64,000 nt of DNA from Rubritalea squalenifaciens DSM 18772 (GTDB lineage Bacteria > Verrucomicrobiota > Verrucomicrobiia > Verrucomicrobiales > Akkermansiaceae), in assembly GCF_900141815.1 (NCBI RefSeq), contig NZ_FQYR01000006.1, positions 62,001 through 126,000 on the forward strand, written 5' to 3'. How positions within the stretch are numbered: position 1 is the first letter of the stretch; every line of letters begins with the position of its first letter. Below, one piece after another: positions 798 to 21,014 of this stretch. Both the position numbers and the translations under genes were made by a program. A model generated the notes under the pieces. That model did no database searches. It saw only the letters and a list, made by a program, of their open reading frames with translations, and was not told the origin of the DNA.

Positions 798-3647
798 TTA
801 TTTGAAAATCACATAAGAGAATCCCTTAGCTGGAACCTTGATAGTGATGAAGGCTCGCTGGTTGGAGTCCAGTGTGGTGCTCTCGGCTTGTTTGCCATCG
901 ATGCTGAAGCGGACATTGCCGCTCAGGCCAGCATAGTAGAGCGGGACGGCGATCTGCTTGGTAATTTCTTTCTCCGTGGGGTTGAAAACGGCGAGAAGTG
1001 CTTTTTCCTTGAGCTGGGGATTGACGTGCAGCATCCAGTCGAGATCGAGCCCGTCCGCGCGTCGGCCATGGATGAGATCGGATTCAAGAATGTCGCGGTG
1101 CATCTTGAACCAGGAAACGACTTCAGTGACCATTTGCTTGGTGTCCTCCGTATCATAGATGCGAGTTCCGCGGTAGCAGGCCTGCACTCCGAGCGCGAGA
1201 TTGGAGAGCATCATGGTCTTGTAATGGGGGAGGTGCTCCTTGAGTGGCTCAATGGTGGCCGCTGCGCCGCCGCCATGGTACTGAGTGAGAGGGACGAACA
1301 TCCAGCCCATGGAGGGAGTTTTGAGCCAAGTGCCATCATAGATATTCTGGCGGGTGTGGATGCGCTGCATGGCACGTGGGAGGGACCAGTTCACTTCGCG
1401 GTATCCCATGGTGCATTTGTTAGCCCCGTTGAGGTAGTAGTAGTCCGGGAAGTTCATGAAGACGCCTTTGGCGCGGAGGTGCTTGAAGAAATCTGTCCAA
1501 AGTCTCCAGTGCACCCAGCGGGAATCGCTCAGGCCCTTCTGGAGTGGTGGGCGCGCAGTGGTGTCTTCATCACCAGGGTAGGTGCCGTCGTTCTCGAAGA
1601 CGGTGAATCCTGTCTTGTCAAAGCAGTTGTAGAGCTTGGCGAGGTATTTTTGCCCCCATTCGCTGGTGATGGACGGGCAGTTGCCGTGGGTGGGGCGGAC
1701 TCCCTTAGGTGGAACGATGTCGTTGCCGCCACCTATGCGGCGGGAGGAATAGAGTGAGTAGGAGCCCAGATCGATACCCTTGCTCTTGGCGTAGTCGTTC
1801 ACCTCTTTCCATTGGGCAAGGTAATCAGGAGAATCGTTCTCCATGTTGAAGCCGGAGCCGAAGGAGAGAATCACCATTTCAAAACCAGTCTCCGCAGCCT
1901 GGTCGATGGCAGTCTTGACGACCTTTGGGTCGGAGGACTTGCAGTGAAGCATGATCGGGTTCTCTGTGACCCAGGGAGCGATGGTGCGGTAGAGTTTACG
2001 GCGGGCTAGGCCGCGGCGTTCTCTGTCCGTCGAGTCCTGCACGAGCTCAAAGGTATAGAAACTCTCGAAGGTGTCGCCGGCCTTGATGGTTTGGTCTGGT
2101 CCGCGAGCGGGCTCGACTTTGAGGAGGCAGGGCGTCTTAAGCAGGTAGTTCACCTGGGTCTTGAAGGCTGGGTCAGTTTTCCAGAAAACGGAATAGCGGT
2201 CGGCGTTCTCTGCGGCGAGACCGCCCATGGCCATGTCTGTTTCTACGTCTAACACATCAGGGTGCTCGATCGGGCGACCGGCTCGCGACTCAACGAGGTT
2301 GTTCTTTTCGACAACGGCGAGTGTCTCGGCGTTGAAGCGGTCCAAGTTGATGTCTTTATCTGTGTTGTTAGAAACGGTGATCCACTTGCTGAGCGCTGGG
2401 ATGCCGTCGTAGATCTCGTAATGAACAGAAACGGTTACGTCTCGCTGGGATTTTTCTTTTTCAGCGAGATGTTGCAGCTTGTTCTGATCGAACATGGAAT
2501 AGAAAGAGATGCTGTTGATACGGAGGCGGACGAGCTCTCCGTCTGCGTCACGGTCAGTCGTGCCGCCTTTCATGTCGAGCTTACCAACGCGGAAGGCAGT
2601 TGCTTGCCCTGCTTGAACGGGCATCGGCAGCGTATGGTAGCTCTTCCATTGGCCGCCTGAGGGCCTCGCCTCGAAGTGGAGAGTCAGTCCTTCGATGCGG
2701 ATACGCAGAGTCCAGTCCTTGGAGAGATCGATCTTTTCGTTGCCACTGACATTGGGAAGTTCCTTGGTGCCATCCCAGATGCCAAGAACGGGGCGGTTCA
2801 CATTGGCGAGGCCTGCCGGGCGTAGGTTGAATTTGACTACGCGGTCCTTGTAGACGAGTGCAATGCCTGGCCCCCAGGAGGATGAGTCGTCTGTGCCGGC
2901 ATTGATCTCAGCCTCCACGAGTGAGGTTCCTTTCGGGAGTGGACGCTCGGCAACCACGGCAGTGTCAGGCAGGGTGTAGATTTCTCCCGGCTTGCCCTCG
3001 TTCTCAAAAGAGGATCGCTCGTGCTTTGGGCTGGTGCGAATCTTCCAGCCGGAGTCGATCTTCTTGAATTCGTCGTTATAGAGTAGTTTACGGCCAAGTG
3101 CAGAGGCTGTGGTGACTGAGCTTGCTAGATCGCTAGCGCTTGGTTCAGGCAGGCGGTAGTCGAGGCGGAGATACTTGCCCTTCGGTGGCCAGACGACGTT
3201 TGGAGCATGACGGCGGATTTTTCCCCACTGGAGGCGCTCTTTGGGGTCGCCGATCTCGTGACCGACGAGGGTGAGGGCATTCTTGGCAGGTTTCTGTGCC
3301 TTGAGGGTCGCTTCATCAATAAAGGCGCGATTGAGCTGACCGGTGACGCCGCCGATGGAGTAGGTGACACCATCGATAGTGACGGAGCCCTCCTGCTCGA
3401 CAGCCCGGATGACGGTCTGTCCTGTCATTAGGTTGTTGAACGCGGTGGTGGTGCCGAGCTTGGTGTCGATGACGCGTTCGAAGAGGCCATTGCTGAGGGT
3501 GATGGTGCTTGGACCGGTTTTGATCTCAGCCTTGAAGCTGGTGTTGTTTAAGAGCCAGTCCTGCTTGAGTTGGTAGTTCTGCGGCATCTGAGCCAGTGAG
3601 GTGCCCGCTAGTGCCAGTGAGAGGAGTAAGCCTTTAGAGAAATTCAT
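798..3647 (-). CDS. Large secreted glycosidase-like protein (alpha-galactosidase-like TIM barrel, family unassigned)
   Basis: 949 residues with a clear signal peptide (MNFSKGLLLSLALAGTSLA, cleavage before QMPQ). Residues about 25-540 look like beta-sandwich domains, including a part around 185-380 that reads like a concanavalin-type insert. Residues about 565-860 read as a (beta/alpha)8 barrel: ILSFGSGFNME, GIDLGSYSLYSSRR, FTVFENDGTYPGDED and GVFMNFPDYYYLNG. The END (about 685-687) resembles the end-of-strand acid of clan GH-D/GH31-type alpha-glycosidases. A C-terminal beta domain follows. I do not recognise a named GH family, so substrate and activity are inferred. It starts at an ATG preceded by an AC-rich leader without Shine-Dalgarno, and ends convergently with the regulator at 1-696. 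Confidence 0.6.
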   Translation of the reverse strand: MNFSKGLLLSLALAGTSLAQMPQNYQLKQDWLLNNTSFKAEIKTGPSTITLSNGLFERVIDTKLGTTTAFNNLMTGQTVIRAVEQEGSVTIDGVTYSIGGVTGQLNRAFIDEATLKAQKPAKNALTLVGHEIGDPKERLQWGKIRRHAPNVVWPPKGKYLRLDYRLPEPSASDLASSVTTASALGRKLLYNDEFKKIDSGWKIRTSPKHERSSFENEGKPGEIYTLPDTAVVAERPLPKGTSLVEAEINAGTDDSSSWGPGIALVYKDRVVKFNLRPAGLANVNRPVLGIWDGTKELPNVSGNEKIDLSKDWTLRIRIEGLTLHFEARPSGGQWKSYHTLPMPVQAGQATAFRVGKLDMKGGTTDRDADGELVRLRINSISFYSMFDQNKLQHLAEKEKSQRDVTVSVHYEIYDGIPALSKWITVSNNTDKDINLDRFNAETLAVVEKNNLVESRAGRPIEHPDVLDVETDMAMGGLAAENADRYSVFWKTDPAFKTQVNYLLKTPCLLKVEPARGPDQTIKAGDTFESFYTFELVQDSTDRERRGLARRKLYRTIAPWVTENPIMLHCKSSDPKVVKTAIDQAAETGFEMVILSFGSGFNMENDSPDYLAQWKEVNDYAKSKGIDLGSYSLYSSRRIGGGNDIVPPKGVRPTHGNCPSITSEWGQKYLAKLYNCFDKTGFTVFENDGTYPGDEDTTARPPLQKGLSDSRWVHWRLWTDFFKHLRAKGVFMNFPDYYYLNGANKCTMGYREVNWSLPRAMQRIHTRQNIYDGTWLKTPSMGWMFVPLTQYHGGGAAATIEPLKEHLPHYKTMMLSNLALGVQACYRGTRIYDTEDTKQMVTEVVSWFKMHRDILESDLIHGRRADGLDLDWMLHVNPQLKEKALLAVFNPTEKEITKQIAVPLYYAGLSGNVRFSIDGKQAESTTLDSNQRAFITIKVPAKGFSYVIFK

Positions 3648-3862: not shown

Positions 3863-4711
3863 ATGAAACTTACACCAAATCTACTCATTACATTGGCGGC
3901 TATTGGGCTGACGCACAGTGCGAGCGCGGCTCTGGTAGCTCAATGGGAATTTGACGAGGGAGTGCCGACAAGCTCTCCGACTAACGGTTCCTATACGACA
4001 TACGAAACAGTCTCCGGCACCAACAGTGGAACGTTTTGGGGCGCCTCCGTACGCGCCTACGATAACTCCGCGGGAATCGGAGCTAGCCCACAAGGCGGGG
4101 GCCATGCCTATTTTGATGCTACAGGAACAGGCAATGATCCTCACGTGATTGTGGATACTACCGTACAAGGCAATCTGCCTGTGGGTAGCTCCAGCAGGAC
4201 GATCATGGCCTGGATCAATGCTGATGCCAGCCAGCCGCATACAGGAAATATTTTCTCCTATGGAACGAATCTTACTGGAGAGCGTGCCTCGTTCCGTCTT
4301 GATACCACAGGGGCGATCCGCTTCGAAGTCCAAGGTGGCTATACTTATGGTGGGGCTGATTTGCGTGGTGCAGGCTGGACTCACGTCGCCGTAGTGATCG
4401 ATGATTTTAATACCGACACCACCACAGATGTCAGCGAGGCCAAGCTCTATGTGAATGGTGTTGAAGTGGGTTCCTATACCAGTGCAGCACAGGCCATCAA
4501 TACGGTGGCTGGTGGGATCAATACCTCGATCGGCAACTCGAGCCAGAACTACGCCACTAGTGGCTTCAATGGCGGGATCGATGATGTACGTATTTACGAT
4601 ACCGCTCTGACTCAGGGGGAAATCGCATCGATTGTAGCCGTGCCTGAACCTAGCTCCACAGCCTTGATCGGGCTTGCTGGTCTCGGTTTTATCCTTCGCC
4701 GGAGGCGGTAG
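3863..4711 (+). CDS. PEP-CTERM protein with LamG/concanavalin A-like domain
   Basis: 282 residues. There is a signal peptide (about 1-22, ending SASAA), then a LamG-type jelly-roll: LVAQWEFDEG opens it, followed by RTIMAWINAD, WTHVAVVIDD, AKLYVNGVEVGSY and GGIDDVRIYDTALTQGEI, the signature order of LamG_3/ConA-like domains. The C-terminus is a PEP-CTERM tag: VPEPSS, a Gly/Leu-rich hydrophobic helix, then RRRR. Family knowledge says the tag is recognised by an exosortase at the inner membrane and the protein is delivered to the envelope or exopolysaccharide. It probably binds carbohydrate. It is followed by its own terminator and a second PEP-CTERM gene. Confidence 0.85.
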   Translation: MKLTPNLLITLAAIGLTHSASAALVAQWEFDEGVPTSSPTNGSYTTYETVSGTNSGTFWGASVRAYDNSAGIGASPQGGGHAYFDATGTGNDPHVIVDTTVQGNLPVGSSSRTIMAWINADASQPHTGNIFSYGTNLTGERASFRLDTTGAIRFEVQGGYTYGGADLRGAGWTHVAVVIDDFNTDTTTDVSEAKLYVNGVEVGSYTSAAQAINTVAGGINTSIGNSSQNYATSGFNGGIDDVRIYDTALTQGEIASIVAVPEPSSTALIGLAGLGFILRRRR

Positions 4712-4915: not shown

Positions 4916-5635
4916 ATGAAGTATAAATCTACAATACTCACTATCGCTGTCACGGGATTCATGATTACCGCATCGAATGCGGCAATCGTGTGGACAGGTG
5001 CAGCTGACACAAACTTCTGGAATGATGCGAACTGGGACTTCGGAGGCTCCTCCGTGACTGCCGGTGAATTCAATCCAAATACAGCGTTCAACGATGATGT
5101 TGTCATCAGCAACGCCACAGGAGTCACCACCGTCGACGGTGAAGGCATCCTGATCAACGACGGCTTCAGCCTGACCCTTGATAACTCAGACATCTTTGTT
5201 AACGGTGCCGCTGGTACCTCAGGCATCAAAGGTGTGGCTGCTGGTGCTGCCTCTACTTTCAATCTGGCCAATGGCTCTGTTCTCAACACACAGTTTGCTA
5301 CTACTGGTGCTGATGTGAATGTGGATGGTACCAGTGAGATCATTTTCCGAGGTGGTGGTGACCCGATCAACTCCCAGACTGATCAAACAAACATCTTCCT
5401 TGCGATCGGTGGTAAGTTGACCCTCCCTACTCTTGCTGAGTTCACTGAGCAGGCAGACACCCAGGGTGGTGCCATCTATGTGAATGGTGTGCAGGTGACA
5501 GGGTCTAACGTGAATGATCTCTTCACCTTCACAGACAACGGGGGTTCATTCACAGGTACAGCTGTTCCAGAGCCTAGCTCCACTGCTCTGATCGGCCTTG
5601 CTGGTCTGGGCTTGGTGCTTCGCCGCAGACGATAA
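4916..5635 (+). CDS. PEP-CTERM secreted protein, WTG/NW-type
   Basis: 239 residues with a signal peptide (about 1-22, ending ASNA) and an N-terminal block IVWTGAADTNFWNDANWDF that recurs in modified form in the proteins at 27678-28667 and 28850-29587. The body is low-complexity beta-rich (many G, T, N, D), like passenger-type beta-helices. Near the C-terminus is GGDPINSQ..QT followed by LTLP..AEFTEQ, nearly shared with 27678-28667, then VPEPSS-hydrophobic-RRRR. It is secreted, and anchoring by exosortase is inferred from the tag. No catalytic motif is visible; a structural or matrix role is a guess. Confidence 0.8.
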   Translation: MKYKSTILTIAVTGFMITASNAAIVWTGAADTNFWNDANWDFGGSSVTAGEFNPNTAFNDDVVISNATGVTTVDGEGILINDGFSLTLDNSDIFVNGAAGTSGIKGVAAGAASTFNLANGSVLNTQFATTGADVNVDGTSEIIFRGGGDPINSQTDQTNIFLAIGGKLTLPTLAEFTEQADTQGGAIYVNGVQVTGSNVNDLFTFTDNGGSFTGTAVPEPSSTALIGLAGLGLVLRRRR

Positions 5636-5696: not shown

Positions 5697-5748
5697 ATGG
5701 TGTGATTATGCTTGCTCAGATTTATTGAGGAAGATGAGGCCCTATGGT

Positions 5749-8391
5749 TTATTGCTTGTTGAGTCTTTTAAGTTGTTTGCCGGCAAGAGAGCCAGGAATC
5801 CAGATCGCGTTTTTGAGAGGCATTCTGTTCTCGGCTTTGTCTGGTAGGCCGATAAGCAGAGGGGTGCTGTTACGGCTGATATAGCGGGCGAGATCTTGAT
5901 CCAGACTTGCATCTTCTGGAAGGTAATAGTGGAGCTTCACCTCTTTGTTGAGGAGGTCCTTGTCTCCATTAATAACTTTGAGGATAGTGTAGGTGAAGTT
6001 GAGCGCTCGCATGCCGTCTGGAGTGCCGGACTTCTTCTGACCGGGTTTGAAGAGTTCGACCTGCTTGATCTTGCCGAAGCCGATGAAGGTGCCGTCAGCA
6101 TAGGCCTTGGCGAGTTCTTCATCGGAGCCGAGCAGTTTGGTACCTGTCTTGGTGTAGAGGTGCATGTCGTACTCACCGGCGGGGATGAACAGCTGCTGAC
6201 TGCCGTAGTCCAGAATCGGCTTGAAGGAGAGCAGGGCGTCTGCGCCGAGGATTCCGTCTACTTTCTCGTTCTTGACTTTGCCAATATCTCCGATGAGGGC
6301 TGGAATGCTGTCTACTGTGGCTGCACCGATCTGCATTTGGTCGATGCTATGCACTCCGATAGAGGCTTGATTAATTCCGCCTGCTCCCCTGACACGGCCA
6401 TCTACTTTCAAGGAGTCTAGCCCGAGGCGTTCTGCCGCATCGGAATAGATGATGGTGGAGGAGGCTCCTGTATCTAGCAGAAGGTGTGCTGGCTTACCGT
6501 TGATCAAGACATCAATGGTAATGTGATTTTTGGCGATGTGTAGAGGGTGTGGTTTCAAGTCTGAGCGCTGAGTGATCTCAGCGAGCTCGATCTTGCGGTT
6601 CTTATTGTAGTAAAGTTCATTGCTTGAGAGATCCATGACGGCGTGAATCTGAGAGAAATAGTCACCACCCAGTAGGGCGTCGAAACCATTGTTATGCAGG
6701 TTAGTGCTTCTGAACTCCTGTTTGTTGGCAGTGGCTTTTCCGAGTTGGAAAGTCTCTGTGGTGACGGTGTTGAGGTTGGCTAGACCACCGGCTCCTCTGG
6801 AGAATGCCAGTGAATCTTTTCCAGCTTCAAGACCGAGCTTGCTCAGACTGCCGGAATCCAGAACGGTAGATTGAGCTCCGGTGTCTAACATGAGAATGGC
6901 TTCCTTGCCGTTGATGCTGGATTTGACGGTCCAGTAGTTCTTGCCGCTTGGTTCCAAAGTCATGGCAAGCTTATGGGTGCCTTCAGGAACGGTAAGTTCA
7001 AGAGGTTTGGCTGCTTTGGATGCCTGCAGTGTTTTGAAGACGCGCTCGACTTGTTTTTCGTTCACCGGCACGCCTGCTTTGCGCATGGTCTCGCGGATTT
7101 CTTCCCTGGTGGAACCAGGTTGGAAGGAGAGGCCTACAGCATTACCTTTGTTATCGTTGAGACTCTGGAGTTGCTTGCGGATCATTTTGATGAAGGTGGC
7201 CGTAGTTGGGTGGCCGCCCTTCTCGAGAGCTTTTTGGATTTCCTCGTCTGTGGACTCAGCGTTGAGGCCACGTAGGTCGAAGCGTCGTGAGGTCTTTGGA
7301 GCCGATCTCTCCTTCTTGAGAGCCTGCTGTAATTCCTGAGTCTGTTTGACGGCGGCATCCAGTTGCTCGTCGCTGGCTTCTGCAGAGACATTGCTGATCA
7401 ACTTGCGAATGGCCTCTGGCTGGCTCATTGATGAGAGAAGGATGGAGCCAGTGCCGAAGTCTACGACTGCCCCACTTGCTTTGAGAAAGGGTGCCCCAAT
7501 GATGCCCCCGTATGGTGGTGCGCCTTCTGGAAGGGAAAGCTCGACAGTGCGCGGCATGGCGAGAAATTCTGCCTGCGGCAGGATGAAGTTGTCCGCAAAG
7601 GTGACGTTCTGAAGGCGTGCGATCTGTAGTTTGTCCAGTTGTCCGAGGGTGCCGCCTCGTACCTTGTGATTGCTGTCTCGAAGTTCGGCCTTAAGTTCGG
7701 TTGCTAATTTGGCGTCGATAATGTCTGAGCCAGCACCGGTATCCATGAGGAAGGAGTAGTCTTTGCCATTGATGTTCAGATAGAGGAAGGGGAGGCCCTG
7801 CGGGCTACGGTGCAGTGGCAGTGCCCAACCTCCCTTGGACAGGCAAGACTGGCGCTGCAGAGAGGATGGTATTTTATTTGTCGGGATGAAGAAGGTGTTC
7901 TCCGAATAGCTTACAATGGCGCGGGATAGATAGAGGAACTGTGATCCCAGCAGCCCTCCAAAGGGGAGTTCCTCAGTGCCGAAATCTTTTTCGAGCGGGA
8001 TGGGGGAGGCGATGACCTTTTTATTTTTGAGGACAATCGCACCGCCGATATTTATTTTGTCAAAGCTGGTGGAGTAGAGCTTCCCTTTACCAGTGATGCC
8101 TTGGACTTCTCCAGCATTTTCAAGTGTCTTGCCGAGGGATTTGGCGAGCTTCTCTGTGACGACGATTTCCTGGGAAGCACCACTATCGACCAAGAAAGCG
8201 GCTTTCCTGTCCTCGACTCCGACCACCGTGAGGAGGTGTGAGCCTTTGGTATCGCTGAGTTTGAGCTTGTGGTATCCTTGGCCTTTCTCGACCTGGTTTC
8301 GCTTGGGTGGAGCGGCTGGGGTGTCGTCTGCCAGCGCTGGAGTTAGCAGCGCTAGACCGAGAGATAGATGAAGGATCTTGTGTGTTTTCAT
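5749..8391 (-). CDS. Secreted protein with four retropepsin-like aspartic protease lobes
   Basis: 880 residues from the ATG at 8391, chosen because MKTHKILHLSLGLALLTPALA is a good signal peptide; the frame extends 15 codons further upstream. There are four single-lobe aspartyl-protease-like units, each with a hydrophobic-D(T/S)GA motif and a downstream hydrophobic-hydrophobic-G: LVDSGAS (D69) with GGLLG; LMDTGAG (D217) with GGIIG; LDTGAQ (D503) with ALLGG; LDTGAS (D640) with GILGA. Between lobes 2 and 3 (about 335-465) are helical repeats of the type TDEEIQKALEKGG / TREEIRETMRKAG. A unique C-terminal domain covers about 750-880. All four aspartates are present, so two intramolecular active sites are possible. 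Substrate unknown. It lies 93 bp downstream of the SGNH/sulfatase pair on the same strand. Confidence 0.75.
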   Translation of the reverse strand: MKTHKILHLSLGLALLTPALADDTPAAPPKRNQVEKGQGYHKLKLSDTKGSHLLTVVGVEDRKAAFLVDSGASQEIVVTEKLAKSLGKTLENAGEVQGITGKGKLYSTSFDKINIGGAIVLKNKKVIASPIPLEKDFGTEELPFGGLLGSQFLYLSRAIVSYSENTFFIPTNKIPSSLQRQSCLSKGGWALPLHRSPQGLPFLYLNINGKDYSFLMDTGAGSDIIDAKLATELKAELRDSNHKVRGGTLGQLDKLQIARLQNVTFADNFILPQAEFLAMPRTVELSLPEGAPPYGGIIGAPFLKASGAVVDFGTGSILLSSMSQPEAIRKLISNVSAEASDEQLDAAVKQTQELQQALKKERSAPKTSRRFDLRGLNAESTDEEIQKALEKGGHPTTATFIKMIRKQLQSLNDNKGNAVGLSFQPGSTREEIRETMRKAGVPVNEKQVERVFKTLQASKAAKPLELTVPEGTHKLAMTLEPSGKNYWTVKSSINGKEAILMLDTGAQSTVLDSGSLSKLGLEAGKDSLAFSRGAGGLANLNTVTTETFQLGKATANKQEFRSTNLHNNGFDALLGGDYFSQIHAVMDLSSNELYYNKNRKIELAEITQRSDLKPHPLHIAKNHITIDVLINGKPAHLLLDTGASSTIIYSDAAERLGLDSLKVDGRVRGAGGINQASIGVHSIDQMQIGAATVDSIPALIGDIGKVKNEKVDGILGADALLSFKPILDYGSQQLFIPAGEYDMHLYTKTGTKLLGSDEELAKAYADGTFIGFGKIKQVELFKPGQKKSGTPDGMRALNFTYTILKVINGDKDLLNKEVKLHYYLPEDASLDQDLARYISRNSTPLLIGLPDKAENRMPLKNAIWIPGSLAGKQLKRLNKQ

Positions 8392-8484
8392 AGAAATGCG
8401 GATATGTCTGCGTGTAGAACGCAACGGTATCCGCATTTTGCTGAAATGCGTCTCTGCTTAGAGTGGTGTAGAAATGGGTCCGGT

Positions 8485-20072: not shown

Positions 20073-21014
20073 ATGATCAAAACACTCAAGTATACTTCAA
20101 TGGCCATGCTCTGTGCCTTGACGACGCTCTGCGCGCAGAACACGGAACAAGCTTTCACCTTTAGACCCATCAAAGTGGAGGCCACGGATAATGGCGGCCT
20201 CTTTACCGCTACAGTAAAAGTAGAGGATACGAATGCCCGCTTTCTGATTGATACAGGCTGCGCATACACACTTGCCTACGATACGGATTTCTTAAAATCG
20301 ATGGGCAAGGAGCTTACCGCCCAAGGGAGGGCTCGAGGAGTCGGTGGAGATGGAAAAGCCTTCCGGGCAGTGATAGAAAAATCCACCGTGGGGAATGTGG
20401 TGGAAGTCGGGAAGCAAGAGAACGCCAGAGTCTTACCCGTGAAGCACCTGGAGCACCTCAAGACAGGTGGTCAGCCTACTGAGATCCGAGGATTGCTCGG
20501 CGCTCCACTGATGAAGAAAGCGCGTGGGGTTTTTGACTATGGTAATCCGCGTATTCTGGTGCCGACTGGCAATGCTCCCAAGGGAGTTTATCAGATGGCG
20601 ATGAAGCAGCAGGGAGCAACTGTTTTGCCTCTGATGGAGGGGGAAAACAGCTTTCCTTACATCGATTTAAAAATCGGGGACACTACTTATGCCTTCCTGA
20701 TTGATACGGGAGCGAATGCTCACGTGATCTCCACCAAGCTGGTCGAGAAGCTGCAACTACAGACCGAGGACAAGGATGTGGCAGTGAGAGGGATGACTAA
20801 GGCACAAGGGGTCAAGGTTGTCCGAGTCAAAGATTCGGTGATGGGTAAGCACTTCCAGCTCTCCGAGTTGAAACTTCATGTGATCGATACCCAGAGCCTG
20901 ATGAAGGGGCCCGGAGGAATGGAGATCGGGGGAATCATCGGTACAGGCCTGCTCAAGCAGCTCAAGGCCCAGCTCGATTTTGATTCCTACACTCTGATTG
21001 TGCCCAAGCGTTAG
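20073..21014 (+). CDS. Secreted two-lobe retropepsin-like aspartic protease
   Basis: 313 residues from the ATG at 20073, preferred over an upstream GTG because it gives a signal peptide (MIKTLKYTSMAMLCALTTLCAQ). Two lobes each carry the aspartyl-protease signature: FLIDTGCAYTLAYD with IRGLLGAPLM, and FLIDTGANAHVIST with IGGIIGTGLL. The arrangement is like a pepsin-type fused dimer built from retropepsin-like lobes, and could make one intramolecular active site. It is related to the four-lobe protein at 5749-8391. Substrate unknown; it lies upstream of a GntR-type regulator, separated by a terminator. Confidence 0.75.
   Translation: MIKTLKYTSMAMLCALTTLCAQNTEQAFTFRPIKVEATDNGGLFTATVKVEDTNARFLIDTGCAYTLAYDTDFLKSMGKELTAQGRARGVGGDGKAFRAVIEKSTVGNVVEVGKQENARVLPVKHLEHLKTGGQPTEIRGLLGAPLMKKARGVFDYGNPRILVPTGNAPKGVYQMAMKQQGATVLPLMEGENSFPYIDLKIGDTTYAFLIDTGANAHVISTKLVEKLQLQTEDKDVAVRGMTKAQGVKVVRVKDSVMGKHFQLSELKLHVIDTQSLMKGPGGMEIGGIIGTGLLKQLKAQLDFDSYTLIVPKR

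Follow-up and report, generated by a model that had tools for sequence, protein, structure and literature searches.

Two Bilobed Retropepsin-like Units Joined in One Predicted Aspartic Protease of Rubritalea squalenifaciens

A gene on the minus strand (5749..8391) of the window, by which we mean the whole 64,000-nucleotide stretch of Rubritalea squalenifaciens DSM 18772 DNA that was analyzed, encodes a polypeptide of 880 amino acids (plus stop codon) with four retropepsin-like lobes. The protein is likely to be exported and to act as an aspartic endopeptidase that has two composite active sites, derived from the fusion, by a helical linker, of two bilobed clan AA paralogs. Each half of the protein follows a known plan; the unusual feature is that one chain combines two such halves.

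Four lobes in one open reading frame

The first 21 residues of the protein (8329..8391, minus strand) read by eye as a putative Sec signal peptide, and from this N terminus the 880-residue protein is probably exported. A longer start is possible at 8436. The motif D(S/T)GA occurs exactly four times in the protein, at D69, D217, D503, and D640, which are the positions given in the original prediction. These aspartates lie in lobe 1 (residues 39–172, 7876..8277; D69 in DSGA), lobe 2 (residues 189–323, 7423..7827; D217 in DTGA), lobe 3 (residues 469–600, 6592..6987; D503 in DTGA), and lobe 4 (residues 613–745, 6157..6555; D640 in DTGA), all encoded on the minus strand. Each lobe had also been predicted to have its own downstream hydrophobic-hydrophobic-Gly partner. 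Such a triplet alone says little, since there are 11 in the whole protein, and it is their placement that bears this part of the prediction out: 4 of the 11 share a single column of the lobe alignment, one per lobe (LLG at 147–149, IIG at 297–299, LLG at 573–575, and ILG at 714–716), and the remaining 7 fall outside that column.

The lobes were scanned one by one against the PF13650 (Asp_protease_2) profile, which has a curated cut-off of 24.3 bits. Lobes 1–4 scored 38.6, 38.7, 46.6, and 71.6 bits (E values of 1.8e-9, 1.7e-9, 5.6e-12, and 9.4e-20, respectively), each above the cut-off, and these single-lobe scores exclude chance as the source of the four lobes. When the whole protein was analyzed, PF13650, PF13975, PF00077, and TIGR02281 each matched four stretches; a profile count had been proposed as a check, with fewer than four matches counting against the prediction. 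The same four PF13650 matches were recovered from the raw genome by a six-frame search. The score obtained with TIGR02281 (clan AA aspartic protease), 107.2 bits compared with a cut-off of 57.95, is a sum over the four stretches, as this profile is itself one lobe long (121 positions).

Lobes 2 and 3 are separated by a linker (residues 325–468, 6988..7419, minus strand) that is modeled as six helices between residues 325 and 459, with 10-residue confidence means of 40–84, so that the helical stretch expected at this place is seen with mixed confidence. No clear relative of the linker was found in 58 genomes, where the best match outside the gene itself had an E value of 0.0176. A match of the linker to PF25325 (EF-hand) reached 27.6 bits when the linker was scanned alone (cut-off 27) but 20.3 bits in the whole protein, and it was treated as chance. 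The chain ends in a domain of ∼135 residues (residues 746–880, 5752..6156, minus strand) that matched no Pfam family and for which no solved structure emerged as a convincing relative. This C-terminal domain aligns with L006 and L044, two-lobed proteins that are the two closest relatives of the C-terminal half, and it is absent from the four relatives of the N-terminal half in the same alignment.

Predicted fold and pairing of the lobes

In clan AA, two aspartates, one per lobe, activate water in a common cleft. Retropepsins (MEROPS A2) have one lobe per chain and are active as homodimers, whereas the protein described here has four lobes in one chain and falls outside the retropepsins as strictly defined. 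A full-length AlphaFold2 model, made from a shallow alignment of 12 rows, had a mean pLDDT of 55.1; in it, the N-terminal half was fairly confident (10-residue means mostly 70–90), and residues 460–740, where the alignment was almost without partners, were unconfident. A model of the C-terminal half, predicted on its own from a similarly shallow alignment of 13 rows, had a mean pLDDT of 70.9, and its residues 1–270, which hold the lobes, were mostly at 75–94. Because the N-terminal half and a paralog are among the rows of this second alignment, it presupposes the order of the lobes.

The best structural match of both halves was 9iy9, a putative Bacteroides fragilis endopeptidase that has two retropepsin-like lobes per chain. 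Residues 37–320 of the N-terminal half superposed on 9iy9 as one body in VIA-align (Z 19.2, rmsd 3.5, 253 residues aligned), and the model of this half also superposed on pepsins and renins (Z about 15–16, VIA-align). Foldseek ranked 9iy9 first for the N-terminal half (E value of 5.4e-11), but the superposition was loose (target TM 0.41, rmsd 7.9); tethered HIV-1 protease dimers came next (target TM 0.66–0.71, rmsd 5.2–6.4). The C-terminal half gave a Z of 21.8 on 9iy9 by VIA (rmsd 3.3, 259 residues aligned) and a TM of 0.51 of the target by Foldseek, whose superpositions were looser than those of VIA for both halves. This half also superposed on tethered HIV dimers (target TM 0.62–0.73, rmsd 4.8–6.5, Foldseek), on Rv0977 (4ehc; Z 16.2, rmsd 3.4, 222 residues aligned), and on pepsins and renins.

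Because both lobes are matched in one superposition, the lobes of each half appear to be placed roughly as they are in an active aspartic protease. Each half contains the two D-T/S-G loops of clan AA, each with its hydrophobic-hydrophobic-Gly psi-loop, and in the predicted models these would form one cleft. The pairing of lobe 1 with lobe 2 and of lobe 3 with lobe 4 that had been proposed from the sequence agrees with these results, since the model of each pair superposes as a unit on two-lobed aspartic proteases. Pairing across the halves (for example of lobe 1 with lobe 4) is unlikely, as judged from homology and the half models only. Since lobes 1 and 2 and lobes 3 and 4 each model and superpose as a two-lobed unit, the best reading of the models is that one chain would hold two composite active sites.

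Among solved chains, 9iy9 is also the best match by sequence (E value of 8.5e-5, or 5.7e-9 with a profile). It differs from the protein described here in having one lobe pair instead of two, at 14–18% identity, and no publication on it was found in a literature search. Pepsins (MEROPS A1) and proteases of the Rv0977/PecA type resemble each half in forming one cleft from two lobes, and the half models superpose on pepsins and renins as noted above; in contrast, no pepsin-family profile was among the eight Pfam families listed at E values up to 1, and the 21.2 bits obtained with NF038019 are far below its cut-off of 150, which sets the protein apart from PecA. The Rlo proteases of Pseudomonas aeruginosa are, by their description in the abstract of the report, also exported retropepsin-like bacterial proteases (PMC12239564).

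Relatives, origin, and rarity of the four-lobed plan

The genome of R. squalenifaciens encodes three further proteins of this family, all of which are two-lobed. One (313 amino acids; 20073..21011, plus strand) is in the window and belongs to the same clade as the N-terminal half, and the others are on contigs C4 and C5. The C5 paralog (L073:5262-6626) has 455 amino acids, an N-terminal extension, and lobes that are ∼100 residues apart; a similarly wide spacing recurs in other relatives, such as L011–L013. Clear two-lobed proteins were found in cyanobacteria, and two-lobed cases with a weaker second lobe were found in alphaproteobacteria and in a Phycisphaerae bin. The original prediction had considered only homodimeric retropepsins and two-lobed pepsins as points of reference. 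This framing was too narrow, as the three paralogs, the cyanobacterial proteins, and 9iy9 illustrate: two retropepsin-like lobes per chain is a common and widespread bacterial plan. The two-lobed bacterial Asp_protease_2 proteins L002, L003, L006, L034, and L044 have the same lobes, in the same order and with the same motif positions, and each is kin to one half or the other of the protein described here, from which they differ in having two lobes per frame.

Trees were built from frames with exactly two lobes that are <60 residues apart, with identical frames entered once; these criteria removed the C5 paralog, further relatives with wide spacing, and frames in which one lobe was matched. In a tree of 31 units, made up of both halves and 29 relatives, the N-terminal half was in a clade of eight with support of 100/99, and the C-terminal half was outside this clade. 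When six long-branched rows were dropped, the resulting tree of 25 units placed the N-terminal half in a clade of seven (support of 100/97), again with the C-terminal half outside. The two halves had been named as a group for testing before the 31-unit tree was seen, and the best tree that joins them was rejected (lnL lower by 29.3, AU p value of 0.00141, 25 units). Neither tree included the C-terminal half in a starred set. By path, L006 was the row nearest to it in both, but in the 25-unit tree a weak fork (64/71) separates it from L006 and L044, and some rows drew a warning from the tree program for long branches and odd composition. The tie of the C-terminal half to these two proteins comes from sequence matching, as both match it together with the C-terminal domain (L006 at residues 487–878, E value of 8.7e-29; L044 at residues 445–878, E value of 2.8e-23).

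Because the tree test rejects the two halves as sisters and the C-terminal domain is common to separate two-lobed proteins, the gene appears to have arisen by fusion of two different bilobed genes through a linker for which no clear relative was found, and this is its simplest history. An origin by tandem duplication of a single bilobed unit within the gene was rejected on the basis of the trees and of the distribution of the C-terminal domain. No DNA tandem repeat was found within positions 5700–8450. A source pair of adjacent bilobed genes was not found either; each region analyzed (those of L006, L034, L044, L007, and two of the paralogs from the same genome) had one lobe-bearing frame, and the L044 region in this analysis comprised only 3,951 bases. 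For pepsins, it has been suggested that an ancestor with one lobe was duplicated and the copies fused (PMC2761423). The gene described here appears to show a further step, in which two finished bilobed enzymes from different paralog groups were fused.

When the whole protein was used as the query, the only full-length match was in its own genome, both among 58 relatives and in samples of 260 genomes of the family, 386 of the order, 387 of the phylum, and 197 of a different class of this phylum. In the last four samples, scoring was limited to the best few candidates of each genome (thresholds of 1e-12 or 1e-8), and the samples overlap. The samples of 58 relatives and of the family included 11 other genomes of the genus, some of them incomplete, and one of these (G004) has a separate gene of the type of the C-terminal half, L006. 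Two peptide patterns were also run against GTDB contigs and yielded 11 relatives but no four-lobed ortholog, a weak negative because only these two patterns were used; the widest match, L051 (query residues 65–755), is a 433-residue frame that is not four-lobed. Five contigs in a viral collection (L057–L061) encode relatives of the lobes according to search A2, and searches P0001 and A3 of that collection found no relative.

A search of 194 genomes of the phylum with PF13650 at an E value of 1e-5 gave 112 matches in 72 genomes, located in 96 open frames. There was one match in 82 of these frames, two in 13, three in none, and four in one, which is the gene described here; these counts are lower bounds, since weaker second lobes are missed at this E value. 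Seven regions with long frames (618 to 892 amino acids) were analyzed: six gave a frame matched by the lobe profile, each with at most two lobes, and L081 had no match. Two of the long frames, of 798 and 892 amino acids, were considered as multi-lobed candidates and rejected, as each shows a single clear match to the lobe and, besides it, another D-T/S-G motif; by eye, both have a PDZ-like tail and long upstream read-through. In the titles and abstract openings returned by a literature search, no description of a four-lobed or tandem bilobed aspartic protease was found. The original statement that no protein of this plan has been described stands within the searches made, which yielded no second four-lobed protein.

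Proposed activity and alternative explanations

In the mechanism that we consider likely, lobes 1 and 2 would fold together so that D69 and D217 come to lie at a common cleft, and lobes 3 and 4 would do the same with D503 and D640 at a second cleft. Each pair of aspartates would then activate water for peptide cleavage, in the manner of pepsin and tethered HIV protease. The two halves probably differ in substrate preference, since they descend from different paralog groups, and their presence in one chain could favor two cuts in one substrate. It is possible, although we put this forward tentatively, that the protein is a natural double aspartic protease in which the linker sets the spacing of the sites, so that two coordinated cuts are made in one substrate; alternatively, one half might mature or control its partner. 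If this is true, the tetra-lobed plan would be unlike that of pepsins or retropepsins, and if both sites work, the protein provides a ready system to ask whether linking two aspartic protease sites alters specificity or processivity. The gene also draws attention to the bacterial bilobed retropepsin-like proteins as a group.

Activity may have been lost in some members of this group, since the motifs are altered in the two-lobed relatives L007:1348-2529 (DYGL and DVGA) and L042:1471-2463 (DIGS in lobe 2), which are possibly inactive forms. This makes it conceivable that only one half of the protein is a working protease and that the other, with its motifs kept, is a binding, inhibitory, or positioning module; we regard this as unlikely, because all four D(S/T)GA motifs and the four aligned psi-loop glycines are intact. 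Somewhat less probable still is that the chain is a precursor whose linker is cut after export to release two independent bilobed enzymes. Residues 364–374 of the linker, which have low model confidence and are rich in basic residues, would offer a place for such a cut, and the relatives whose frames were inspected carry at most two lobes, but helices are predicted on both sides of this stretch.

The lack of a four-lobed ortholog in any sample searched is also what would be expected if the fusion were a sequencing or assembly artifact, or a neutral accident in one strain. We consider this explanation very improbable. The open frame is uninterrupted over 902 codons and lies on a 163-kb contig of a genome assembled in 17 contigs, third-position GC is alike in all four segments of the gene (0.60–0.62), and a linker without clear relatives is not explained by a simple mis-join. 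As a singleton for which no ortholog was found, the fusion may be a recent event without consequence. Relative to these alternatives, we favor an exported endopeptidase in which each half would form an active site of its own.

Gene context did not point to a substrate, as no consistent partner was seen among the neighbors, which include two PEP-CTERM proteins, a GDSL hydrolase, a sulfatase, and an AcrB-type pump. A 949-residue protein that appears to begin with a signal peptide and that matched no Pfam family at an E value of 0.001 is encoded at 801-3647 on the minus strand. The two PEP-CTERM proteins are encoded by adjacent genes on the plus strand (3863-4711 and 4916-5635) and have nearly identical C-terminal sorting tails, and the first of them contains a LamG-type domain.
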